Positions 5,701 to 37,314 of a DNA stretch of 64,000 bases are shown piece by piece. Origin of the DNA: Levilactobacillus huananensis (GTDB lineage Bacteria; Bacillota; Bacilli; Lactobacillales; Lactobacillaceae); NCBI RefSeq assembly GCF_003946145.1, contig NZ_RHOC01000008.1, forward strand, positions 1 through 64,000. The letters run 5' to 3'. The notes below the pieces were generated by a model. The model saw nothing but the letters and a program-made list of their open reading frames with translations, had not been told where the DNA came from and did no database searches. Position numbers and translations under genes: made by a program. The number at the start of each line of letters is the position of its first letter. Position 1 is the stretch's first letter.

Positions 5701-6630
5701 CTAATCCGCCTCCTCTGTGGCTAAGAAATCCAAGAGATCTTTAGTTTGTAACTGGCGGTTGCCCTCAGGCGTCGCCACAACAACCGGTCCCTGACGTAAG
5801 GCCGCCGCAAGCCCACTCATAGCTACCGATGTGCCAATAGTGGCTGCATCGGTCGTCGCCGTCCCGTAGCCGGCCAGCAGGAGATCAGAGATGGTATCCG
5901 GTCGAGCCGCATTCTCCACTTGGAAGAAACCGCGAACGAAGTCGTTAGCCGGATGGCGGATGATGTCTTCACCCGTTCCGACTTGTTGGATGTGGCCAAG
6001 CCGCATTACCGCAATGTGTTGGCCCAAGCGCAAGGCTTCATGCATGTCATGGGTCACAAAGACAAAGGTCATCTTAAGTTCCTGATGCAAGCGTAAGACC
6101 AGGTCTTGAAGCTGCTTACGAGAAATGGGGTCCAAAGCACTGAATGGTTCATCCATCAGGACCACCTTGGGCTTAATCGCCAAGGCACGAATGATGCCGA
6201 CCCGTTGTTGCTCTCCACCAGAGAGTTCACTGGGCATCCGCGTCGCATATTGGTCGGGATCCAAGTCAACCTGCGCCAACAATTCACGTGCCCGCTCGAT
6301 GCGCCGCTTATGAGGCCACCCCAACGACTCTGCTTGAATGGCAATGTTATCTTGAATATTTAAGTTGGGGAAAAGGGCGATGTTTTGTAAAACATACCCC
6401 ATCTGAAGTCGTAACTGTTTCAAATCGTAATCAATCAAACGGCGATCGTCGAAGTAAATGTCGCCATCGGTAGGTTCAATCAACCGATTTAACATTTTCA
6501 ACGTCGTGGTCTTCCCACTCCCACTGGGACCGACCAACACAAAAAAGTCCCGGCTGGGAATCGTGAGGTTCAACCGATCCAGTGCTTGATTGTGTGCATA
6601 TTGCTTGGTAACATTTCTAAATTCTATCAT
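5701..6630 (-). CDS. choQ: Glycine betaine/carnitine/choline ABC transporter ATP-binding protein
   Basis: 309 residues. Walker A GPSGSGKT (about 35-42), signature LSGGEQQR (about 136), Walker B VVLMDEP, D-loop SALD and switch His (VTHDM) are all intact. The C-terminal 70 residues look like a single, degenerate CBS-like regulatory part, shorter than the paired CBS domains of OpuA/OpuCA. The ATG at 6630 has GGAGG 5 nt upstream; 17 extra upstream codons lack an RBS. It is the first gene of a two-gene operon with the fused permease. A TATAAT-like -10 on the minus strand lies at 6741-6746, leaving a leader of about 105 nt. Confidence 0.9.
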   Translation of the reverse strand: MIEFRNVTKQYAHNQALDRLNLTIPSRDFFVLVGPSGSGKTTTLKMLNRLIEPTDGDIYFDDRRLIDYDLKQLRLQMGYVLQNIALFPNLNIQDNIAIQAESLGWPHKRRIERARELLAQVDLDPDQYATRMPSELSGGEQQRVGIIRALAIKPKVVLMDEPFSALDPISRKQLQDLVLRLHQELKMTFVFVTHDMHEALRLGQHIAVMRLGHIQQVGTGEDIIRHPANDFVRGFFQVENAARPDTISDLLLAGYGTATTDAATIGTSVAMSGLAAALRQGPVVVATPEGNRQLQTKDLLDFLATEEAD

Positions 6631-6878
6631 GTTAACCTCCATACCATACCCATGTGGCCCGTTTTGACGGAATACCACCACTACCGACGCGAGCGCGACA
6701 TGCTTCCGCTAACCCACTAACGGTGTGTCTATGACCTCTAATTATACTAACCTTTGACCAAATACCTAAGAAATTGGCTCATAAGTTAGCCATGCAATAA
6801 CCTCCACTTTACAGTCTTTGAACGTAACTGTTAAGATTAAAAATAAAGACTTTTGCCCCAAAATACTTATAAAGTAAG

Positions 6879-28334: not shown

Positions 28335-28362
28335 AGCGCCATTCCCGACGAGGAATGGCGCT
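28335..28362 (-). terminator. Terminator of the nucleoside-pathway operon
   Basis: 11-bp perfect stem (28335-28345 / 28352-28362) followed by TTTTT on the minus strand, 13 nt after the nucleoside hydrolase stop. Confidence 0.88.
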
Positions 28363-28375
28363 AGTTTCAAATCGA

Positions 28376-29314
28376 TTACTTGTTGAAAGTCTTCAAAGAA
28401 TCCTTGATCAATTGGATAAAGGCCGGACGGTCAATATCTAACAGAACTTCAGTATTCTTAGGCTTCCCAGTGAGTTCATAGTAGTCACAAACCGTTTCAC
28501 CACGAACCAATTCACCTTCAGTTTCCACATCAACGTTCATCAATTCGCTCTTGAACATTTCTGGATGGAGCATCCAGGCAATGGTACATGGATCATGTAG
28601 TGGCGCACCCTTGAAGCCCCACTTTGGATTTTCGTGGTAGACTTCGAAGAAGCTCAGCAAACCGCGGAACGCGTGGGCAACCGGGTTGTCGATCTCGTCT
28701 AACGATTCAATTTCTGGCTTCAGGATTTGGGCTTTGTGGGTCACGTTCAGTGGCGCCATTGTTAGCGGAATCCCAGCGTTCAAGACAATCTTAGCGGCTT
28801 CTGGGTCCACGTAGATGTTGAATTCTACGGATGGGGTCCAGTTACCTAAGCCCATGGCACCACCCATGAAGACGATCCGTTCGATCTTGCTCTTCAATTC
28901 TGGGTAGACCCGTAAGAACAACGCAATGTTGGTCATTGGGCCGGTAACCACTAAGGTTACCTTGTCATCACTTTCGCGTAAGGTCTTGGCAATCAGCTCG
29001 ATAGCCGTCATGTCCTGAACCTTGAAGTCTGGTTCGGCAAGGTCAGCCCCGTCCAAACCGGACTTACCATGCACGTTTCCGGCCGTTTCCAACGGCTTCA
29101 TGAGCGGTGTCCGGTTCCCACCGGCCACTGGAATCTCTTGGTGGTGCATCAACGTCAAGAGACGCATTGCATTATTCAACGTCTTCTCTGGGGTTTGGTT
29201 CCCGGCAGAAGAAGTGACCGCTAATAAGTCAATCTCAGGATTGGCTAACGCCAACATCATGTTGAGGGCGTCATCGTGACCGGGGTCACAGTCCATAATA
29301 ATCTTTGTTGTCAT
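28376..29314 (-). CDS. Ribonucleoside hydrolase (IunH/Rih family)
   Basis: 312 residues. The calcium/ribose site DCDPGHDD (Asp10, Asp14, Asp15) is intact, as are [30 protein letters not shown] and the C-terminal [10 protein letters not shown] with the ligand Asp. It cleaves the N-glycosidic bond of ribonucleosides to base plus ribose in the cytosol. Base preference is unclear. It is the last gene of an operon with the NupC transporter, PfkB kinase, alcohol dehydrogenase and TrpF-like barrel. AAGGAG stands about 9 nt before the ATG at 29314. Confidence 0.93.
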
Positions 29315-29340
29315 GTCAGATAGCTCCTTATCTAAAGTCA

Positions 29341-29736
29341 TTAGTGGGTTGATTTAACCGTTACTTTGCTAAGTTGACTACAGGTCTTGAACCATAGCAG
29401 GTTGACCCCGATGCCGACGAGACTGCCGACAATGACGAGGCTCAGCAGGCCAGTTGCCTGACTCAAGTTGGAAACGGCTGTCACCAACGAACTGACGAAT
29501 CCAAACGAATAAACGATAATCACAAATTCCATTAATCCTACCGCGTGGCGCCGATCACGAAGCACGTTGATCGCGCTCCAGACGTAAAGCACGAGAGCAA
29601 ACGCCACGGTATTAATCATGGGGCGAATGGCGGCCGCGTTACTCGTCAGCACTGTCACACCCAGATTCGTGGCAACAAATAGGAACCAAGAACCCAGCAT
29701 CAACGGTAATAATTTTTTGAGTTTCGTTTTCACCAT
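29341..29736 (-). CDS. Small four-helix membrane protein of the nucleoside operon
   Basis: 131 residues with four predicted membrane helices (about 10-30, 38-60, 68-88, 95-117) and positively charged loops and ends. I recognise no family. It lies between nupC (13 nt away) and the nucleoside hydrolase, so it is co-transcribed. It may assist transport or be an unrelated passenger; no catalytic motif is visible. Confidence 0.75.
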
Positions 29737-29749
29737 TCAAACCTCCTAA

Positions 29750-30943
29750 TTAGAAGTACAGACCAACGATAGTCCCAGTAAGAACAGAAGCCAAGGTGGC
29801 TCCTAACAGCAACTTCATGGAGAACTTGGCAACGTAACCACCTTGTTCAGCACTGATGGACTTGATAGAACCCGTAACGATCCCGATCGTCCCAAAGTTG
29901 GCGAAGGATACCAGGTAAGCAGAGATGATGGCGTTAGCCTTAGCACTCAACCCACCGGCGATAGCATGTAAGCTCCCCATGGCAACGAATTCGTTGGTAA
30001 TCAACTTGGTTGCCATCAAACTCCCAACCTTCATGGATTCATGTAAAGGAACACCCATTAAGAAGGCAACTGGTGAGAAGACGTAACCAATTAAGTCAGT
30101 AAATGAAATGTGGATAATAGCAGTAAAGCTATTGTTTAAGAACGTCACCAGGGCAACGAACCCGATTAGCATGGCACCAACAGTGATAGCTAAGTTGAAT
30201 CCATCGGTGATGTAAGTTCCTAAAACTTGGAAGAATGGTTCTTGCTTCTTCTCGGAAATCTGAACCAATTCATCATTGGCTTCAGTCTCGTAAGGGTTGA
30301 TAATGCAAGAAACAATCAATGCAGACAAGATGTTCAAGAAAACGGCAACAACAACGAACTTGCCGGGAACCATCTTCATGTATGAAGCTAGCATTGCGGC
30401 TGAAACGGCACTCATTGCTGAGGCACAAATGGTGTAAAGACGTTGTTCATTCAGTTTTGGGATTTGTTCCTTAACCGTCAAGAAGACTTCTGGTTGACCC
30501 AGAATGGCCGTTGATACGGCAAAGTAACTTTCAAGTTCACCCATACCGGCAATCTTGTTCAAAATCCAACCAGTCCACTTGATGATAAATGGTAAGACTT
30601 TGATGTAGTTCAGGATCCCAACCAATGCGGAAATAAAGACAATTGGCATCAGTACGTTGAGGAAGAAGACGGAGGCACCCGGCTTGATGGCTAACCCACC
30701 AAAGACGAAGTCAACACCACCGGCAGCTTGACCCATCAACCAGCTGAAGAAGCCGGAGATTCCGGCTAAAGTCTTAATCCCACCGGAAGTATGTAAACAA
30801 AGAAACGAGATAATGATTTGCAAAGCAAACAGAATTCCCATTCGTTTGTACTTGATGTGCTTACGGTCGGAACTAACCAGCCAGCCAATCCCGAAGACTA
30901 ATGCTAGCCCAGTTAACAAGAAAACAAAATTCATTATGTTCAC
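29750..30943 (-). CDS. nupC: Concentrative nucleoside transporter, NupC family
   Basis: 397 residues with about 10 membrane helices. Gate, nucleoside-recognition and C-terminal CNT domains are recognisable: GQPEVFLTVKEQIPKL (re-entrant hairpin 1 region), SGGIK near the N-terminus, MKVGSLMATKLITNEFVAM (helix 7b/hairpin 2) and SFANFGTIGIVTGSIKSIS. It imports nucleosides with protons or sodium. Here it feeds the hydrolase and the kinases encoded beside it. It lies 11 nt after the dehydrogenase stop codon. Confidence 0.93.
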   Translation of the reverse strand: MNIMNFVFLLTGLALVFGIGWLVSSDRKHIKYKRMGILFALQIIISFLCLHTSGGIKTLAGISGFFSWLMGQAAGGVDFVFGGLAIKPGASVFFLNVLMPIVFISALVGILNYIKVLPFIIKWTGWILNKIAGMGELESYFAVSTAILGQPEVFLTVKEQIPKLNEQRLYTICASAMSAVSAAMLASYMKMVPGKFVVVAVFLNILSALIVSCIINPYETEANDELVQISEKKQEPFFQVLGTYITDGFNLAITVGAMLIGFVALVTFLNNSFTAIIHISFTDLIGYVFSPVAFLMGVPLHESMKVGSLMATKLITNEFVAMGSLHAIAGGLSAKANAIISAYLVSFANFGTIGIVTGSIKSISAEQGGYVAKFSMKLLLGATLASVLTGTIVGLYF

Positions 30944-30954
30944 CCTTTTTCCTT

Positions 30955-32124
30955 TTAGTCGAGGCGCTTACCGAAACCAGCTAACAGTTTGGCAGCAACC
31001 TGTTCGTTCATTTCTCCAGGCATGTTGCTTGCGAATTGTTCGTTTGCAACGGCCTTGGCGTTGGAGACAACTTGTTCGGAAGAGATGCCGTAATCGCTGA
31101 ATGGGTGTAAGCCCAAGACATCGTCACGGAAGTGTTGGTACTGCTTAACTGCGGCAGAAGCACGATCAGCCATGGATTCATCTTCGGCATAGTTCAACCC
31201 GAGGATTTGGCCGATTTCGGCAACCTTTTCAGGCATCAGTTCACTAACGGCGGTCAAGACACTTGGTAAGGCGTAGGCAACAGCTTCACCATGAACAATG
31301 TGGTACTTGGAACCCAAGATGTGAGCCATTGAGTGACCCGCGTTAGTTCCGGCATTGTTCAACATCCAACCGGCTAAGGCCGCGGCAACCATCACTTCTT
31401 GACGTGCCTTACGGTTTTGGCCGTCCTTTACGGCAGTTGGCAAGTAGTTGGCTAACAGGAACATGACCTTTTCACAAATAGCGTCGGTGATTGGGCTGGA
31501 AAGCCGTGACGTGTACCCTTCAGCAGCGTGAGAGAAGGCATCCAAACCAGTGGCAATCGTCATCTTAGTTGGTAACGATAACAACAGATCAGGGTTCAAG
31601 ATGGCATATTCACTGACAGCGTTGTCAGAAAGAATCGCCAACTTCTTTTCAGTCTTCACATCAGTTACGACGAGGGCGTTGGACATTTCACTCCCAGTAC
31701 CGGAAGTCGTTGGCACGGCGATCAGACCCTTGCAGACCTTGATTTCCTTCTTAGGATCCGTGTAATCCATGATGTCGCCACCATTGGTCCGCACGATGTT
31801 AACCCCACGAGCAACGTCGATTGAGCTCCCACCACCAATGGCGATAATACTATCAGCCTTGGCTGCTTCGAAAGCTGTAACCCCGTCACGAATGGTTTGT
31901 GCAGGTGGATCGGAAACCACTTTATCAAAGACGGCGACATCAATGCCGTTATCCTTTAACAATTTTTGCGTATCCTGAACCAATTGAACCTTGGCGAGGA
32001 AGCCGTCCATGATGAATAATGGCCGGTGATAATTTTCGGTTTGTAAAACTTCAAGAACCGTTTGTGCCAGATTATCGGTATCGATAACCTTGACGCGTTG
32101 TAGTAATTTAACATCCAAACTCAT
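30955..32124 (-). CDS. Iron-containing (group III) alcohol dehydrogenase
   Basis: 389 residues. NAD-binding IIAIGGGSSIDVARGVNI and VPTTSGTGSEMSNALV are intact. The metal ligands are visible as Asp and His in TGLDAFSHAAEGY, then His in GHSMAHILG and HGEAVAYALP. It reversibly oxidises an alcohol or reduces an aldehyde/ketone with NAD(H). Its presence with a nucleoside hydrolase, kinases and a TrpF-like barrel suggests a redox step on a sugar or sugar phosphate released from a nucleoside (inference). It lies 5 nt from the YczE-like gene. Confidence 0.92.
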   Translation of the reverse strand: MSLDVKLLQRVKVIDTDNLAQTVLEVLQTENYHRPLFIMDGFLAKVQLVQDTQKLLKDNGIDVAVFDKVVSDPPAQTIRDGVTAFEAAKADSIIAIGGGSSIDVARGVNIVRTNGGDIMDYTDPKKEIKVCKGLIAVPTTSGTGSEMSNALVVTDVKTEKKLAILSDNAVSEYAILNPDLLLSLPTKMTIATGLDAFSHAAEGYTSRLSSPITDAICEKVMFLLANYLPTAVKDGQNRKARQEVMVAAALAGWMLNNAGTNAGHSMAHILGSKYHIVHGEAVAYALPSVLTAVSELMPEKVAEIGQILGLNYAEDESMADRASAAVKQYQHFRDDVLGLHPFSDYGISSEQVVSNAKAVANEQFASNMPGEMNEQVAAKLLAGFGKRLD

Positions 32125-32129
32125 TCTAT

Positions 32130-32759
32130 CTAGCTTCTTTCTAGGATTAATCGTTTTCTGAAGACTGAGCTCAACGCTTGAATCGTCGGACCAGTGGTCA
32201 GTGCGGTTAAGATGGTAATAATCCCGAATTTACCACCTAATAAAATACCAATAATGATAAGACCCACGTCGAAGGTAATCTTGCTGCGACGCATGCTCCA
32301 TCCGGTAAAGTCCCGGAGTGTTAGCATGAAGCCGCTGAAGGGGTCAACGCCGATATCGGCGGCAACAAAGAGGCTAATCCCTAGGTAATACAGGGAAATC
32401 CCAGCGACCCCACCAATCGACCGACCCAACAACGTCGTGGAGGTGAAAATCAAGGGGTACAGGTACGACCCGATTGACACGAACAGACCGTAAGGCACCA
32501 GATACATCAAGGTGCCCCAGCTTGCGTAATGCCGCCCGATAAAGAACAGGGCCACGATTAACACCACATTCAAGTAATTAGAAACCGTTCCTAATTGCGC
32601 TTGCTCAAGATGGAAGGTTGTCCGTAACCCGTCGTAAATAATGCCCACAGGGTCATTACCCAACTGGGTATTATTGTTAAAGGCAACCCCAATACAAACT
32701 AGAAATATTCCTAGGAAGGCTAGAGCAACGGTTTTGGGCGTATAACGTTTCGATGACAA
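32130..32759 (-). CDS. YczE/YitT-like integral membrane protein
   Basis: About 209 residues with five or six membrane helices. The repeated pattern LGIFLVCIGVAFNNNTQLGNDP and LGISLFVAADIGVDPFSG (glycine-rich turn after a helix, then DP) is typical of the YczE/YitT membrane family, whose function is unknown. The start is probably TTG at 32759, which has AGGAGG 10 nt upstream; the TTG at 32786 would place this RBS inside the gene. It sits between the TrpF-like and dehydrogenase genes. A similar membrane protein accompanies the second dehydrogenase/kinase operon at 37918. Confidence 0.78.
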   Translation of the reverse strand: MSSKRYTPKTVALAFLGIFLVCIGVAFNNNTQLGNDPVGIIYDGLRTTFHLEQAQLGTVSNYLNVVLIVALFFIGRHYASWGTLMYLVPYGLFVSIGSYLYPLIFTSTTLLGRSIGGVAGISLYYLGISLFVAADIGVDPFSGFMLTLRDFTGWSMRRSKITFDVGLIIIGILLGGKFGIITILTALTTGPTIQALSSVFRKRLILERS

Positions 32760-32789
32760 CTCTCTAACGCCTCCTATGCGATTCAAAAA

Positions 32790-33482
32790 TTAAAGGCCTA
32801 ACTTCTTAGCGGCAGCATCTGCGGCTTCACAGAATGCCTTAACCTTTGGGATATCTTTTTCCATGTTTCCGCCTTCGTACTTGATACTGGTCTTCGTCAA
32901 TGAGTCGACCCCGTATGGGCGAATCTTTTCAATGGCTTCGGCAACGTTGTCAGGTCCCATACCACCGGCTTCAATAACTGGTACGTTAACTTCCTTAACG
33001 ATCTGAGCGTCGATATTCCAGTCATGGGTCACACCACTGGCACCGATCCCAGTATCTGGTGCTAAACCAGAGTCCAACAGGATGTAGTCAACGAATGGCG
33101 CGAAAGCCTTGGCACGCGCAATGGCCCCTTCGCCATCAACCAGAACGGCTTGCATCAGTTCGGTGTGCGGTGCAACTTTCTTCAAGCGCTTAGCAAATTC
33201 AGCATCGGCAGCGTAACCATCACCAGCAATGTGTAAGATGTCTGGTTGGATACGTTCGGCAAGTTGGAGCATTTCTTCAGGGTCGTTTGTCAACATGATC
33301 GCAACGGAGGTTACGCCACGGCGCTTAGCTTCAGCGAAAATCTTGTCAACCCGATCTAGGGGAACACGGTGAGCTGGAACACCACCATGTTGCATAGGCA
33401 CAAGTCCGATGTTGTCGGCCCCAGCTTCCATAGTCTTAACGGATTCGTCGTACTGAATCAAAGAATAAATTTGCTTAATCAT
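32790..33482 (-). CDS. Phosphoribosylanthranilate isomerase-like (TrpF-like) TIM barrel, catalytic Cys missing
   Basis: 230 residues, clearly TrpF fold: AGADNIGLVP, then VAIMLTNDPEEMLQLAERIQ, ILHIAGD, VDYILLDSG and the phosphate-binding VIEAGGMGPDNVAEAIEKI. The Asp of LLDS (general acid in TrpF) is kept. The N-terminal KICG motif with the general-base Cys is replaced by KQIYSLI, and the SGVE segment near the C-terminus by TKTSI. It is therefore not a tryptophan-pathway TrpF. It probably isomerises another phosphorylated sugar or ribosylamine from the nucleoside pathway (inference). RBS GAGGAGAG. Confidence 0.82.
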   Translation of the reverse strand: MIKQIYSLIQYDESVKTMEAGADNIGLVPMQHGGVPAHRVPLDRVDKIFAEAKRRGVTSVAIMLTNDPEEMLQLAERIQPDILHIAGDGYAADAEFAKRLKKVAPHTELMQAVLVDGEGAIARAKAFAPFVDYILLDSGLAPDTGIGASGVTHDWNIDAQIVKEVNVPVIEAGGMGPDNVAEAIEKIRPYGVDSLTKTSIKYEGGNMEKDIPKVKAFCEAADAAAKKLGL

Positions 33483-33498
33483 AAATTACTCTCTCCTC

Positions 33499-34455
33499 TT
33501 ATTTTGAAATGGTTAAAGTTGCCAGCTTCTGATCCACTAACTCTGGTGTGATATCTGGCACTGACTTGGTGCTTTCAAGGGCGATGCTAGATGCGGCCTG
33601 GGCAATCTTACCCGTTTCTTCCAATGACCGGTTAGGGTCTAAGAAGTGGCTCCAGGTAATCGCAGCCATCCCACAGTCCCCAGCACCGTTAGCGTTGACG
33701 ATGTCGGTCTTGAAGATTGGGACGTGAACCATTTCTTCATGGTTGGCACACAGGATACCATCGGCACCCAATGAGATGTAAATGTTCTTCATCCCGGTAG
33801 CCAGGAGCACCTTAGCGGCCTTTTCTGCGGACGCAGTATCGGTAATTTCAACGCCACTGAGCAGCGAAGCTTCCAAAGCATTCGGCTTCAAGGTGTCCAT
33901 CTTACCCAAGATGTGGGCAAAGTGTGGCGCCTTCACAACGGAAACCGTGTCCCCAAAGAGTGGCACCGTCACGTTGTCTCCCAACCAGTCGATAGCTTCC
34001 TGCGAGATGTTCGCATCAATCAGACAGATAGCAGCATTGTTAATGAAGTCGAGGCGCTTAGCCAAAAACTCTGGCGTAATCTGTTCACAGATAGCCATGT
34101 CATTCACACCCACCAGCATGTCACCCGTTTCGTCGGTGATGTACATGTAGGTTGAAGAACGGGACCCCTTGACCAATTCGGCTTGGTCCAACATGATGTG
34201 GTTTTCTTCACAAGACTTTGCTAGTAAGTGACCATTGTAGTCATCACCATACACCGTAATGAGATGGGTAGGGACTTCTAAATGAGCCAAATTTTGGGCG
34301 ATGTTTTGACCCACACCACCGACAGCCATTCCAACTTTACCAATATTGGAATCACGCTGAATGACCTTTTGACTAGGCATCCCGAAGATGTCCATGTTCA
34401 TACCACCAACTACAACGACGTAGCCTGAGTGCTTTTTCAAATTCTGGCTATCCAT
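33499..34455 (-). CDS. PfkB family kinase, pseudouridine kinase-like (PsuK/YeiC/YeiI group)
   Basis: 318 residues from the ATG at 34455 (AAGGAGG 8 nt upstream). VVVGGMNMDIFG, RDSNIGKVGMAVGGVGQNIA and NDMAICEQITPEFL are hallmarks of the pseudouridine/ribonucleoside kinase branch. The catalytic NGAGDCGMAA (GAGD at 257-260) is intact. It should phosphorylate a nucleoside or ribose-like sugar with ATP. No PsuG glycosidase is present in the window, so pseudouridine itself may not be the substrate. It is the first gene of the seven-gene operon ending at 28376, and has a strong promoter with a candidate operator. Confidence 0.88.
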   Translation of the reverse strand: MDSQNLKKHSGYVVVVGGMNMDIFGMPSQKVIQRDSNIGKVGMAVGGVGQNIAQNLAHLEVPTHLITVYGDDYNGHLLAKSCEENHIMLDQAELVKGSRSSTYMYITDETGDMLVGVNDMAICEQITPEFLAKRLDFINNAAICLIDANISQEAIDWLGDNVTVPLFGDTVSVVKAPHFAHILGKMDTLKPNALEASLLSGVEITDTASAEKAAKVLLATGMKNIYISLGADGILCANHEEMVHVPIFKTDIVNANGAGDCGMAAITWSHFLDPNRSLEETGKIAQAASSIALESTKSVPDITPELVDQKLATLTISK

Positions 34456-34506
34456 TTCCATTGCCTCCTTCAGGGCTGGAACTATAAACAAATGTTTATC
34501 TAAGTA

Positions 34507-34551
34507 ATCATTTGATACTATCAGAATATAATCTCCAGAGTCCTTTGTCAA
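34507..34551 (-). promoter_or_regulatory. Promoter of the nucleoside-pathway operon with candidate operator
   Basis: On the minus strand, TTGACA (34551-34546), 17-nt spacer, TATTCT (34528-34523). A short dyad ATCA-aa-TGAT (34507-34516) overlaps the expected start site. The same TCATTTGAT core lies upstream of the fusion regulator (35938-35946). Confidence 0.72.
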
Positions 34552-34669
34552 TAGGATCGTAAGCGGTTGCAATGTTTTGAGGCTGTTTGCTCACCTTTCC
34601 ACATTCCAAAAACCCGTGTCAGTCTGGTGATCGGCTTCCCTTCTAATTTACTTTTTCACAAGCAAAAAA

Positions 34670-34702
34670 AGTGAGATCAAATTTTTATCATTTGATCTCA
34701 CT
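34670..34702 (-). terminator. Terminator of the regulator gene
   Basis: 12-bp perfect stem (34670-34681 / 34691-34702) with TTTTTTT on the minus strand. Because of it, the regulator and the kinase operon are separate transcripts. Confidence 0.88.
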
Positions 34703-34777
34703 TCGCTATAAGTTCATTTTAATGGTTGCCGGCGACCGGCGTACCAAAGATGTGGTTAAAGACGCCCCCGATCACCA

Positions 34778-35866
34778 TCAGTCATCTAAGGCGTGTTGCC
34801 GACGACGGAGGACTTGCGCACTCATTCTGTCATTGACTGCATCATCGGCCTCGGTGGTAATGTAAGTGGCTGCCACTCCCGCCTTAGCTGTTTGGCTGAA
34901 GTCCTGATGATTAAGTCTGGCCCAAGCTAAAGCCGCCACTGCGGACGCCCCAGCCCCATTCGTGTTGCGCGCGTCTTGCTCGGTATCGGGAAAAAAGACC
35001 GCCTGCTCTGCATTTTGATAAAGGATTCCCACCTCGTCAATGTAAATAAAGACATTGGTGACCCCCCGCCCAATCAGATCAGTGGCGGCTTGCCGCGCAG
35101 TGGCCTCGTCACAAATCGTAATCTTCGTTAGCAGAGTGGCCTCCAACGCATTGATAACCAATGTATCAAGCCGATCAATGCCATCATAAAGATTCATCAT
35201 CTTGTTAATCCCGACGGCCTTTGCAAATAACGGCACCGTCACGTGGTTATAGAGCCACTTAATCGTCCGCTTGGGAAGATTGGAGTCGATAATCACTAGG
35301 TCAGAGTTATTAAGCGTCTGCTCATGCCCCATTAAATATTGAGGGGTGATATACGCGTTGATATCCATGTCATCGATCCCAACAATGCGGTCTCCTTGAG
35401 GTTGATTGACGAAGAGATACATCGACGTGGGCTCATTGGCAATTTGTTTGGCATGGCTAATATCAATCTGATTGGTTAACGCGTCTTCCTTAAAGATTTC
35501 GCCGTTACGATCGTCACCATAGGCCGCGATAAAGTAGGGTTTCACACCCAGCTTGCTGAGGTTGACCGCCACGTTTCGGCCGACACCACCTAACTTGGTA
35601 TAAATTTTTCCGGAATAAGAACTCTGATTGGTTACCGTTGTACCGGAGACCCCCAGGATGTCCATATTAATTCCACCGACCACCGTCACGTACTTCGGTG
35701 GCGTAATCACGTACCCTTTGCCCTGGATATAACCTTTCTTGACCAGGTTGGAAATATGAGCCGCCACACCAGACCGGGTGATTCCGGCCAACTCTGCTAG
35801 CTCATTTTGCGTAATCATGGGATTCTGTTTGATCCATTCCAGAATCTGCTGCTCGCGGCTTGTCAC
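34778..35866 (-). CDS. Winged-helix / PfkB-fold fusion with catalytic Asp replaced: probable pseudokinase regulator
   Basis: 362 residues from GTG at 35866. Residues 1-55 form a MarR/ArsR-like winged helix (QQILEWIKQNPMITQNELAE, ITRSGVAAHISNLVKKGYI). Residues about 58-350 are PfkB fold (VVGGINMDILG, LGGVGRNVAVNLSKLG, DDMDINAYITPQYL). The signature GAGD is GAGA (304-307): codon GCG at 34948-34946 in place of Asp. The DSNPG-type sugar loop of kinases is also altered (QSSYSG). Same layout and length as E. coli YeiI, which keeps the Asp. It probably binds a nucleoside or sugar as effector without phosphorylating it and represses the adjoining operon. Confidence 0.87.
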   Translation of the reverse strand: MTSREQQILEWIKQNPMITQNELAELAGITRSGVAAHISNLVKKGYIQGKGYVITPPKYVTVVGGINMDILGVSGTTVTNQSSYSGKIYTKLGGVGRNVAVNLSKLGVKPYFIAAYGDDRNGEIFKEDALTNQIDISHAKQIANEPTSMYLFVNQPQGDRIVGIDDMDINAYITPQYLMGHEQTLNNSDLVIIDSNLPKRTIKWLYNHVTVPLFAKAVGINKMMNLYDGIDRLDTLVINALEATLLTKITICDEATARQAATDLIGRGVTNVFIYIDEVGILYQNAEQAVFFPDTEQDARNTNGAGASAVAALAWARLNHQDFSQTAKAGVAATYITTEADDAVNDRMSAQVLRRRQHALDD

Positions 35867-36002: not shown

Positions 36003-36019
36003 CCTTGTTAAACCTCTGA

Positions 36020-36091
36020 TTGGGCTAGCTGGGTTCGAACCAGCGCATGACAGGATCAAAACCTGTTGCCTTACCACTTGGCTATAGCCCA
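36020..36091 (-). tRNA. tRNA-Gln (anticodon TTG)
   Basis: Full cloverleaf on the minus strand: acceptor TGGGCTA / TAGCCCA, D arm with AGTGGTAAGGC, anticodon stem-loop CAGG-TTTTGAT-CCTG giving anticodon TTG, and T arm GCTGGTTCGAACCCAGC. The CCA end is not encoded. It is a lone tRNA gene with its own terminator. Confidence 0.95.
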
Positions 36092-36324
36092 AGAATTCGG
36101 TCATCACTGACCCAACAGGAACTAATTTTAGCATTTATCCCCCTAAAAATGCAACCCCTTTTTTTCTTCCACGCAGAATTAGTTGACGACCATGCTTCTA
36201 ACCGCTACGCTAAATATACAATTACCAGGTGTACCGTTTATTCGATGTTTAGATTTATGGGATAAGATACCTAATCAACAGTCCTTTTGTACCCCATTCT
36301 ATTTTCAGAAAAGAAGGAACTGAC

Positions 36325-37314
36325 ATGTCCGGTAAGATTACCATTAAAGATGTTGCCAAACAGGCTGGTGTCTCTGAAGCCACCGTTTCTCGGGCTCTCA
36401 ATAATAGCCCGCAGGTGAAACGTGATACCCGCCAAAAGATTCAAAACATTGCGCGTAATCTCGGGTACCATCCCAATGGACTGGCCCGCAGTATTCGCGT
36501 CCAACAAACCCACACACTGGGCATGATCATTCCCGACATTCTCAATGGCTTTTTCACCCATTTGAGTCGTGCCATTGAAGACCAAGCCGCGAAGTCCGGC
36601 TACGATGTTCTGATCGTCAACACTGACGAAAGCCTGGAAAAGGAAACTAAGGCACTCAACTTGATGTTGGAAAAACAAGTCGATGGCCTCTTAATTGCCA
36701 GCGCCGGTGAAGCAACCAACTACACCGACATCTTGGGCAACACGCCTGCTGTCTTCGTAGATCGTATGCCACCAGCTGGCACGGCCCCTGAATACGACCG
36801 CGTCCTTGTCGACAATGGTCAAGGCACCCAGGCCGTGGTGGCCCAACTCATTAATCAAGGGGCTCACCGAATCGGGATCATTAACAGTGCCGTTCCCGCC
36901 ACTGCCGACGAACGACTCCGTGGCTATCACGAGGCGCTGGCTGCTGCCAGCCTTCCCATCGATCCCGCCATCGAGGTCGTCGCTCGCACTGACAACAGCA
37001 ACGTTGGTCAGATGACCCGTCAGCTCCTGGTGAACCAGAAGTGTGATGGCCTCTTCGCAGCAGATAACACCATCATGCGTGCCGTTCTGACAAGGCTAAC
37101 CACGCTTGATGTGCCGGACTTCCAGCTAGGTGGTTTCGACGATAGCGATTGGTTCGACTTCTTGGAAAAACCAATTGTCACGGCCCAACAACCCATCACG
37201 AGGCTCGGTGAGGTTGCCGTAAACCACCTGATCGCCAAGATTCAGAATCCACATCAGATCCCCCAAGAGGTGCGGCTCACAGCGACCATTATTCCACGAG
37301 CAACAAAACGTTAA
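36325..37314 (+). CDS. LacI family transcriptional regulator
   Basis: 329 residues. The HTH is canonical (ITIKDVAKQAGVSEATVSRA), followed by the hinge helix HPNGLARSI and a periplasmic-binding-protein-like effector domain (LGMIIPDILNGFFTHLSRAI, IGIINSAVP, DGLFAADNTIM, GGFDDSDW). The effector should be a sugar or nucleoside. The nearest likely targets are the dehydrogenase/ROK kinase operon at 37918-40615, which has a perfect 16-bp palindrome upstream (inference). RBS AAGGAA. It has its own terminator. Confidence 0.92.
   Translation: MSGKITIKDVAKQAGVSEATVSRALNNSPQVKRDTRQKIQNIARNLGYHPNGLARSIRVQQTHTLGMIIPDILNGFFTHLSRAIEDQAAKSGYDVLIVNTDESLEKETKALNLMLEKQVDGLLIASAGEATNYTDILGNTPAVFVDRMPPAGTAPEYDRVLVDNGQGTQAVVAQLINQGAHRIGIINSAVPATADERLRGYHEALAAASLPIDPAIEVVARTDNSNVGQMTRQLLVNQKCDGLFAADNTIMRAVLTRLTTLDVPDFQLGGFDDSDWFDFLEKPIVTAQQPITRLGEVAVNHLIAKIQNPHQIPQEVRLTATIIPRATKR

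Follow-up and report, generated by a model that had tools for sequence, protein, structure and literature searches.

A conserved PsuK-like kinase and TrpF-like barrel operon in Levilactobacillus huananensis, predicted to act on pyrimidine nucleosides

Layout and conservation of the locus

The window analyzed here is a stretch of 64,000 nucleotides from Levilactobacillus huananensis (NZ_RHOC01000008.1), located on contig C34 of the 2.29 Mb genome G000. It contains a seven-gene operon in which a PsuK-like PfkB kinase and a TrpF-like barrel (TrpFL) are encoded together with a nucleoside hydrolase, a nucleoside transporter, an iron-containing dehydrogenase and two membrane proteins, next to a gene for a fusion of a helix-turn-helix (HTH) and a PfkB domain (HTH-PfkB). 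Based on its composition and its co-occurrence across genomes, this operon is a conserved variant of pyrimidine and pseudouridine nucleoside loci. Pseudouridine ranks as one of the most common modified nucleosides in RNA, and PsuK and PsuG are, to our knowledge, the sole known route for its breakdown. The operon was found to be undescribed: a literature search returned no account of a TrpF-like/PsuK-like operon, nor was one found in the available parts of PMC4972977, PMC12709175, PMC13011590, PMC12506659, PMC9247573, PMC8724604 and PMC8745165.

All eight genes named in a preliminary description of this sequence are present and co-oriented on the minus strand, with nearly the same coordinates. 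The kinase gene starts at 34461 instead of 34455, at the ATG after AAGGAGG. The features of the locus are as follows.

34778-35866, minus strand: HTH-PfkB, winged helix and PfkB pseudokinase domain, predicted repressor (HTH_24 6e-11; PfkB 1.4e-33)
34668-34704, minus strand: terminator-like stem 3' of the HTH-PfkB gene (sequence scan)
34523-34551, minus strand: promoter-like site TTGACA-17-TATTCT 5' of the kinase gene and the seven-gene operon (consensus match only)
34485-34498, minus strand: predicted operator TAAACATTTGTTTA between promoter and kinase start (palindrome, conservation)
33499-34461, minus strand: PfkB kinase, predicted pseudouridine/pyrimidine nucleoside 5'-kinase (contacts of E. 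coli PsuK; PDB match)
32790-33482, minus strand: TrpF-like (beta/alpha)8 barrel, predicted to act on a 5'-phosphoriboside (Pfam PRAI; AlphaFold fold)
32130-32786, minus strand: YczE-like membrane protein, possibly for base or nucleoside transport (68.9 bits, under the cut-off of 205)
30955-32124, minus strand: iron-containing alcohol dehydrogenase (Pfam; PDB match)
29750-30943, minus strand: NupC/CNT-type nucleoside transporter (Nucleos_tra2_C 9.1e-57)
29341-29736, minus strand: small membrane protein, 131 amino acids (no family match)
28376-29314, minus strand: RihA-type pyrimidine ribonucleoside hydrolase (NF007761 516.5 bits, cut-off 433)
28335-28362, minus strand: terminator-like stem at the operon end, 3' of the hydrolase gene (sequence scan)

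According to these coordinates, the seven genes from 28376 to 34461 are separated by gaps of 3 to 26 bases. Due to the terminator-like stem after the HTH-PfkB gene and the promoter-like site before the kinase gene, HTH-PfkB is probably a transcription unit separate from the seven-gene operon. Promoter-like and terminator-like sites are about as frequent in shuffled sequence, and their position is the only argument for them. Adjoining the cassette, a divergent RbsR-like LacI regulator is encoded at 36325-37314, which occupies the same place in L056-L059 and L063 (72-97% identity). A tRNA-Gln (ttg) gene lies between it and the HTH-PfkB gene (36018-36092).

In the Lactobacillaceae, strong TrpFL matches (E below 1e-90) were found in 19 of 397 genomes; several of the weaker matches in this search were ordinary-looking trpF genes with the KxCG motif. 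An ortholog of the dehydrogenase (E up to 1e-90) was found in 19 of 394 genomes, and the two sets of 19 are identical. Therefore, the cluster goes beyond chance and is a real unit, and the co-occurrence across genomes that the preliminary description had proposed as a check is very pronounced. The 16 W-type neighborhoods fetched from Lactobacillaceae in addition to the window all contain HTH-PfkB, the PfkB kinase, TrpFL and the dehydrogenase. NupC was found in 15 of them, YczE in 14 and the hydrolase in 13, with some of the misses caused by contig ends. A partial TrpFL match without a listed gene, together with a dehydrogenase annotated in two pieces, was observed on a Limosilactobacillus mucosae plasmid (L054, 9001-10829), which is probably a decaying cassette.

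For the wider distribution, the best 80 of 202 loci with relatives of the barrel were used. Levilactobacillus species give the best matches elsewhere, with the proviso that the closest neighbors of the window's genome may have been left out of the records. Beyond the family, the 80 loci come from Bifidobacterium, Vagococcus, Streptococcus, Clostridium, Erysipelotrichaceae, Lachnospiraceae, Chloroflexi and Halanaerobiales, among others. In 69 of these loci, the barrel gene has a PfkB gene on its own strand at a distance of no more than 300 bases. A tblastn search of the remaining 11 added four same-strand PfkB genes (weak in L098), giving 73 of 80, and one on the opposite strand; none was found in six loci, some of them at contig ends. 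In a profile search of the phylum (E<=1e-25), the barrel was detected in 3 of 398 genomes including G000 and is therefore rare outside the listed lineages. No relative was found in viral contigs. The W-type barrels (22 rows) form one clade with a support of 95 in a quick tree without bootstrap that has long branches.

Hydrolase-like genes accompany the kinase-barrel pair in Lactobacillaceae, Halanaerobiales, Lachnoclostridium-type loci and one haloarchaeon. On the haloarchaeal plasmid, TrpFL, PfkB and the hydrolase-like gene are found with a transporter that reads by eye as a BMP-type nucleoside transporter. The Bifidobacterium cassette L074 contains the uridine transporter UriT, scored above its cut-off.

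A paralogous cassette is located outside the window on contig C30 of the same genome (L033, 3279-14680). It encodes an energy-coupling factor (ECF) transporter, TrpFL, PfkB, a HAD phosphatase, a dehydrogenase, an MFS transporter and a RihA-like hydrolase. A LacI-PfkB fusion gene is divergently oriented. TrpFL and the RihA-like hydrolase are 34% and 49% identical to those of the window, respectively. The dehydrogenase is closest to model PRK15138 (YqhD), and the ECF S component is nearest to the CD3073 family (116 of 180 bits). The LacI-ribokinase fusion has AATD in place of the GAGD motif. Common to both cassettes of G000 is a core of hydrolase, PfkB kinase, TrpFL, iron dehydrogenase and a regulator with a PfkB domain.

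Absence of PsuG, which the preliminary description had noted, applies to the genome and the family: PsuG (PF04227) was found neither in G000 nor in any of the 394 Lactobacillaceae searched. Among 28 genomes with a W-type barrel, one contains PsuG, and this exception is a Ureibacillus metagenome bin with no kinase beside its barrel. Mutual exclusion of PsuG and TrpFL was considered as proof of a replacement and rejected, since all Lactobacillaceae lack PsuG and the Clostridium sample is too small.

The PfkB proteins and the barrel

The pseudouridine contacts of E. coli PsuK (EcPsuK), as given in the available part of PMC9247573, are N14, D16, S30', G41, V42, N45, Y97, M114, N143, V166, S167, K170 and D256. 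The window kinase is identical to EcPsuK at all 13 positions and has kept the GAGD motif. The same holds for the 13 contacts in 38 of the 39 barrel-linked kinases that best match the window kinase. The exception is L096 with five contacts, which was counted among the 39 even though its barrel lies just outside the labeled W clade and its genome contains PsuG. The mean overall identity of these 39 kinases to EcPsuK is 34%. All 13 contacts are among the 46 of 313 EcPsuK columns that are constant in at least 38 of the 39 kinases (hypergeometric 3e-12), with the caveat that active-site columns generally tend toward conservation. For comparison, C-type PfkB proteins have a mean of 4.1 of 13 contacts (n=33, including the kinase of the second cassette and the second PfkB genes of L123 and L130), HTH-PfkB proteins a mean of 10.7 (n=32), and PfkB kinases adjoining PsuG between 6 and 13 (n=7, from 10 PsuG loci fetched). 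Open reading frames outside the length limits were left out of these counts, and the near-copies L056-L058 and L060-L062 were included.

The best PDB match of the window kinase is PsuK 7vkp (1.6e-53), followed by an unnamed 'probable sugar kinase' (1.4e-37) and by ribokinases at 1e-16 or weaker. Against the NCBIfam PsuK model it reaches 205 bits, below the cut-off of 540. The motif G[AS]GD is present in 71 of the 72 PfkB reading frames called in barrel loci; in L097 it was not found by pattern. Due to the conserved pocket and PsuK as the nearest structure, a nucleoside kinase is predicted, with pseudouridine as the first candidate, and the likeliest substrate is pseudouridine or another pyrimidine nucleoside. 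The statement in the preliminary description that this is not the standard pseudouridine pathway thus needs to be divided: PsuG is indeed absent, yet none of the EcPsuK contacts to pseudouridine has been lost from the kinase.

A reading of the two PfkB proteins of the locus as two kinases is not supported for the fused one, in which GAGA replaces GAGD, so that the catalytic Asp is lost, as it is in 31 of the 32 HTH-PfkB relatives compared. The window protein keeps 11 of the 13 pseudouridine contacts and scores 200.4 bits against NF007416 (YeiI), below the cut-off of 561. It is therefore best described as a candidate pseudokinase repressor, as predicted from its domains and the lost residue. 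The exception among the relatives is L103 from a Blautia bin, an HTH-kinase that has retained GAGD as well as all 13 contacts and is encoded directly before TrpFL; no other kinase was called beside this pair. In a quick tree without bootstrap and with several long branches, the kinases (without L096) form a clade that joins the clade of the regulators with a support of 90, and L103 is placed just outside, its exact place being unsettled. It thus appears that one HTH-kinase gave rise to both the enzyme and the sensor.

The palindrome TAAACATTTGTTTA at 34485-34498 has no second exact match in the genome, and the corresponding operator candidate TAAACAnnTGTTTA is conserved, with a single occurrence in the genome. 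Upstream of the kinase gene, 19 of 39 loci have the palindrome with no more than one mismatch (0.13 expected). If two mismatches are allowed, it is present in 32 of 39 loci (2.3 expected), among them loci from bifidobacteria and clostridia. These counts contain the window and near-identical species (near-copies L056-L058 and L060-L062), and the upstream stretch in relatives was measured from the longest possible kinase start. Based on these numbers, the palindrome is predicted to be the operator of the seven-gene operon.

In public records, the barrel is annotated as phosphoribosylanthranilate isomerase. It matches Pfam PRAI with 42.6 bits (cut-off 22.7), and its best NCBIfam match is trpF with 82.2 of 215 bits, far below every trpF cut-off shown. 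The AlphaFold (AF2) model has a mean predicted local distance difference test score (pLDDT) of 94.1. The closest solved folds are the TrpF structures 1dl3 and 1nsj, with template modeling (TM) scores of 0.85-0.88 by target and 0.73-0.76 by query, and the identity to Thermotoga maritima TrpF structures is 23-24%. In TrpF, the Cys is the general base that deprotonates C2, the Asp is the general acid and the Arg binds anthranilate. An alignment with TrpF proteins, including L140, which is annotated in a trp operon, shows that the barrel family shares with TrpF the acid Asp (D137, equivalent to Asp126 of T. maritima TrpF) and the phosphate loop. Unlike TrpF, it has Tyr6 at the position of the Cys, has not kept the Arg, and its identified neighbors are cassette genes, not trp genes. 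Since the Cys is replaced by Tyr and the Arg is lost, the barrel should have a function other than that of TrpF.

Several more distant loci were observed. In the rhizobial loci L051, L052 and L055, TrpFL occurs with a divergent sugar ABC transporter, a pyridoxal phosphate (PLP) enzyme, a PfkB kinase and an RpiR regulator. The PLP enzyme resembles methionine-gamma-lyase in L051 and L052 and a PatB-type C-S lyase in L105 from an Erysipelotrichaceae bin, with scores below the curated cut-offs. The rhizobial loci represent a different pathway on the same kinase-barrel pair, and other phosphoribosides are probably used as substrates elsewhere. In L108 and L053, TrpFL is found with ADP-ribosylglycohydrolase-like genes (weak scores) and permeases that are BMP-type by eye, a layout reminiscent of E. 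coli yegTUV. The C-type neighborhoods, with PLP lyases, a LUD protein (L121) and the ADP-ribosylglycohydrolase-like genes (L053, L108), did not point to one common substrate. On a Mesorhizobium plasmid, a TrpFL-like gene near annotations of the beta-RFAP synthase family, PurH, SAICAR synthase and BtpA/SgcQ (L139, 9001-9660) looks like part of a biosynthetic cluster. A separate TrpF-like branch, with the catalytic Cys changed to Ala, is present in Agrobacterium vitis, Corynebacterium aurimucosum and Streptomyces lavendulae (L136, L137, L141), where it belongs to indigoidine-type clusters that also contain upp, a PsuG-like gene and genes for a tautomerase and an adenylation domain.

Possible pathway and alternatives

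The preferred reading, with a probability of roughly 45%, is an operon for pyrimidine nucleosides or pseudouridine that works without PsuG and in which the barrel acts on a 5'-phosphoriboside. NupC would import nucleosides; three Pfam models exceed their cut-offs for this transporter, and TIGR00804 reaches 359.6 of 442 bits, below its cut-off. The hydrolase, whose best PDB matches are RihA 3g5i (1.4e-121) and YbeK 1yoe (1.6e-121), would hydrolyze uridine and cytidine. The PfkB kinase would phosphorylate pseudouridine at its 5'-hydroxyl, or else act in this way on a different pyrimidine nucleoside that is not open to RihA. Since a nucleoside kinase adjoins the barrel, TrpFL would take a 5-phosphoribosyl base, which is similar to the TrpF substrate, and act at the anomeric carbon via Asp137. 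Ring opening would then be followed by cleavage to the base and ribose 5-phosphate. Cleavage appears somewhat likelier than an Amadori-type isomerization because the residue that deprotonates C2 became Tyr while the acid Asp was retained. The HTH-PfkB repressor would sense the nucleoside in the same pocket and bind its operator between the promoter and the first gene. For the small membrane protein, no match was found in Pfam or NCBIfam.

A more far-reaching version is unlikely as a whole. It states that in bacteria without PsuG the TrpF-fold barrel takes over as a new glycosidase (or isomerase) of 5'-phosphoribosides, which would make the barrel a second, unrelated solution for breaking the C-C bond of pseudouridine, and that duplication of the kinase produced one enzyme and one pseudokinase repressor with a shared ligand pocket.

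Several observations weigh against a pseudouridine operon of this kind. The absence of PsuG is a family-wide trait and no proof of replacement; in one Clostridium group, PsuG was found in 6 and the barrel in 2 of 17 genomes without overlap, which is meaningless at this sample size. A nucleoside hydrolase is unable to cut a C-nucleoside such as pseudouridine. Here, the hydrolase probably serves uridine and cytidine in parallel, by analogy to RihB in E. coli. A PsuG-like scheme needs no iron dehydrogenase, yet the dehydrogenase co-occurs perfectly in the Lactobacillaceae; it is not adjacent to some clostridial kinase-barrel pairs (L081, L084, L085). No Lys that could be assigned to the role of the PsuG Lys was identified in the barrel. 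The kinase of the second cassette in G000 lacks the pseudouridine pocket (5 of 13 contacts) and is nevertheless paired with TrpFL, which is therefore not restricted to pseudouridine: TrpFL also pairs with pocket-less kinases, and its range is broader. The pocket itself may mark pyrimidine nucleosides rather than pseudouridine for certain. E. coli YeiI keeps 12 of the 13 contacts, although pseudouridine use in E. coli is credited to PsuK in the available part of PMC12506659. In addition, the conservation of the pocket is partly due to shared ancestry, as most regulators without the catalytic Asp keep it too.

The alternatives differ mainly in what the barrel is thought to do. The hydrolase could free ribose, which PfkB would convert to ribose 5-phosphate and the barrel, as a third class of ribose-5-phosphate isomerase, to ribulose 5-phosphate. 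The retained TrpF-like phosphate loop and the hydrolase-like genes in several lineages fit this route, and the pairing of kinase and barrel in 73 of 80 loci resembles rbsK-rpiA pairs such as rbsK2-rpiA2, described in the available part of PMC4972977. On the other hand, free ribose would not require the base-binding pocket that has been retained in the window kinase, and the barrel has lost the Cys that would take the C2 proton. RpiA or RpiB is already present in all 50 barrel genomes tested (RpiA in 21 and the RpiB family, to which LacA/LacB also belong, in 36), so that the barrel was rejected as a substitute for an absent Rpi, although catabolic operons may hold a spare copy. This test set, which was also used for the PsuG search in barrel genomes, consists of 50 of the 80 loci plus G000, lying in 50 genomes. 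The ribose route is thus rated as quite improbable. The isomerization of a phosphorylated sugar proposed in the preliminary description has likewise become doubtful, given the lost general base and the Rpi enzymes in every barrel genome.

TrpFL as a true Amadori-type isomerase, which converts a 5-phosphoribosyl-X to a 1-deoxy-1-X-ribulose 5-phosphate that other enzymes break up, has just as low a probability. Its fold and acid Asp are those of TrpF, and a division of labor of this kind would match the partners that vary by lineage, namely the lyase in L051/L052, the C-S lyase in L105, the dehydrogenase in lactobacilli and the HAD phosphatase in the second cassette. That the break-up would be carried out by the dehydrogenase and phosphatase here and by PLP lyases in rhizobia and Erysipelotrichaceae is an equally improbable assignment. 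The separate TrpF-like branch that adjoins upp and PsuG-like genes in pigment-type clusters also favors an isomerase. This is opposed by the replacement of the general base by Tyr, and by the fact that a pseudouridine ketose would retain its C-C bond to uracil, for which no cassette gene is obviously suited.

The dehydrogenase is given a role if the substrates are 2'-O-methyl-nucleosides, which hydrolase, kinase and barrel would convert to ribulose 5-phosphate and methanol. Its best PDB match is the NAD(P)-dependent methanol dehydrogenase 8zwd (9.4e-57) and its two nearest solved relatives are methanol dehydrogenases, with 1,3-propanediol dehydrogenase among the near relatives. A hydrolase from L. 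buchneri cleaves 2'-O-methyl-nucleosides according to the available part of PMC12709175, but the window hydrolase is RihA-type. In the kinase pocket, the binding residues for the 2'-OH and for the base are still in place, so the kinase should want an intact nucleoside, and this alternative is very improbable.

If lactobacilli, bifidobacteria and clostridia do degrade pseudouridine via the TrpF-like barrel, this would be a new catalytic function for a classic fold. The public annotation as phosphoribosylanthranilate isomerase would have to be corrected, and it would be explained how food and gut bacteria without PsuG could use pseudouridine. The pseudokinase regulator would then offer a clear example of how an enzyme becomes a ligand sensor while its active twin is encoded alongside, with a single operator.

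Comparison with known nucleoside loci

The Corynebacterium-type uridine operon uriR-rbsK-uriT-uriH shares a transporter, a hydrolase and a PfkB kinase with the window and is not known to contain a TrpF-like barrel or dehydrogenase. Models of UriR, UriH and UriT came up in the family searches. Another counterpart is the E. coli K-12 stretch yeiI-nupX-rihB-yeiL-psuTGK (L142). Like the window, it combines an HTH-PfkB protein, nucleoside transporters, a pyrimidine nucleoside hydrolase and a PsuK-type kinase, which agrees with the resemblance to YeiI, RihB and NupX seen in the preliminary description.

At the level of single proteins, EcPsuK resembles the barrel-linked kinases in its ligand contacts and GAGD motif. 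The window kinase differs in missing the NCBIfam cut-off and in having a partner other than PsuG. The window HTH-PfkB shares the winged helix and PfkB domain of the YeiI type without an active kinase motif. YeiI itself (5701-6789) is annotated as a putative sugar kinase and reads GADD for GAGD, in contrast to GAGA in the window protein; judging by this motif and its contacts, YeiI may not be a kinase but may instead regulate nupX-rihB.

The E. coli locus contains psuG, which the window operon lacks, whereas the TrpF-like barrel, the iron dehydrogenase, YczE and the small membrane protein of the window are not found in the E. coli stretch. Because the absence of PsuG is family-wide, this comparison of the parts lists is the stronger argument for a replacement of PsuG. 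By analogy, TrpFL, the dehydrogenase and YczE appear to occupy the place of PsuG in a parts list that otherwise resembles that of E. coli.

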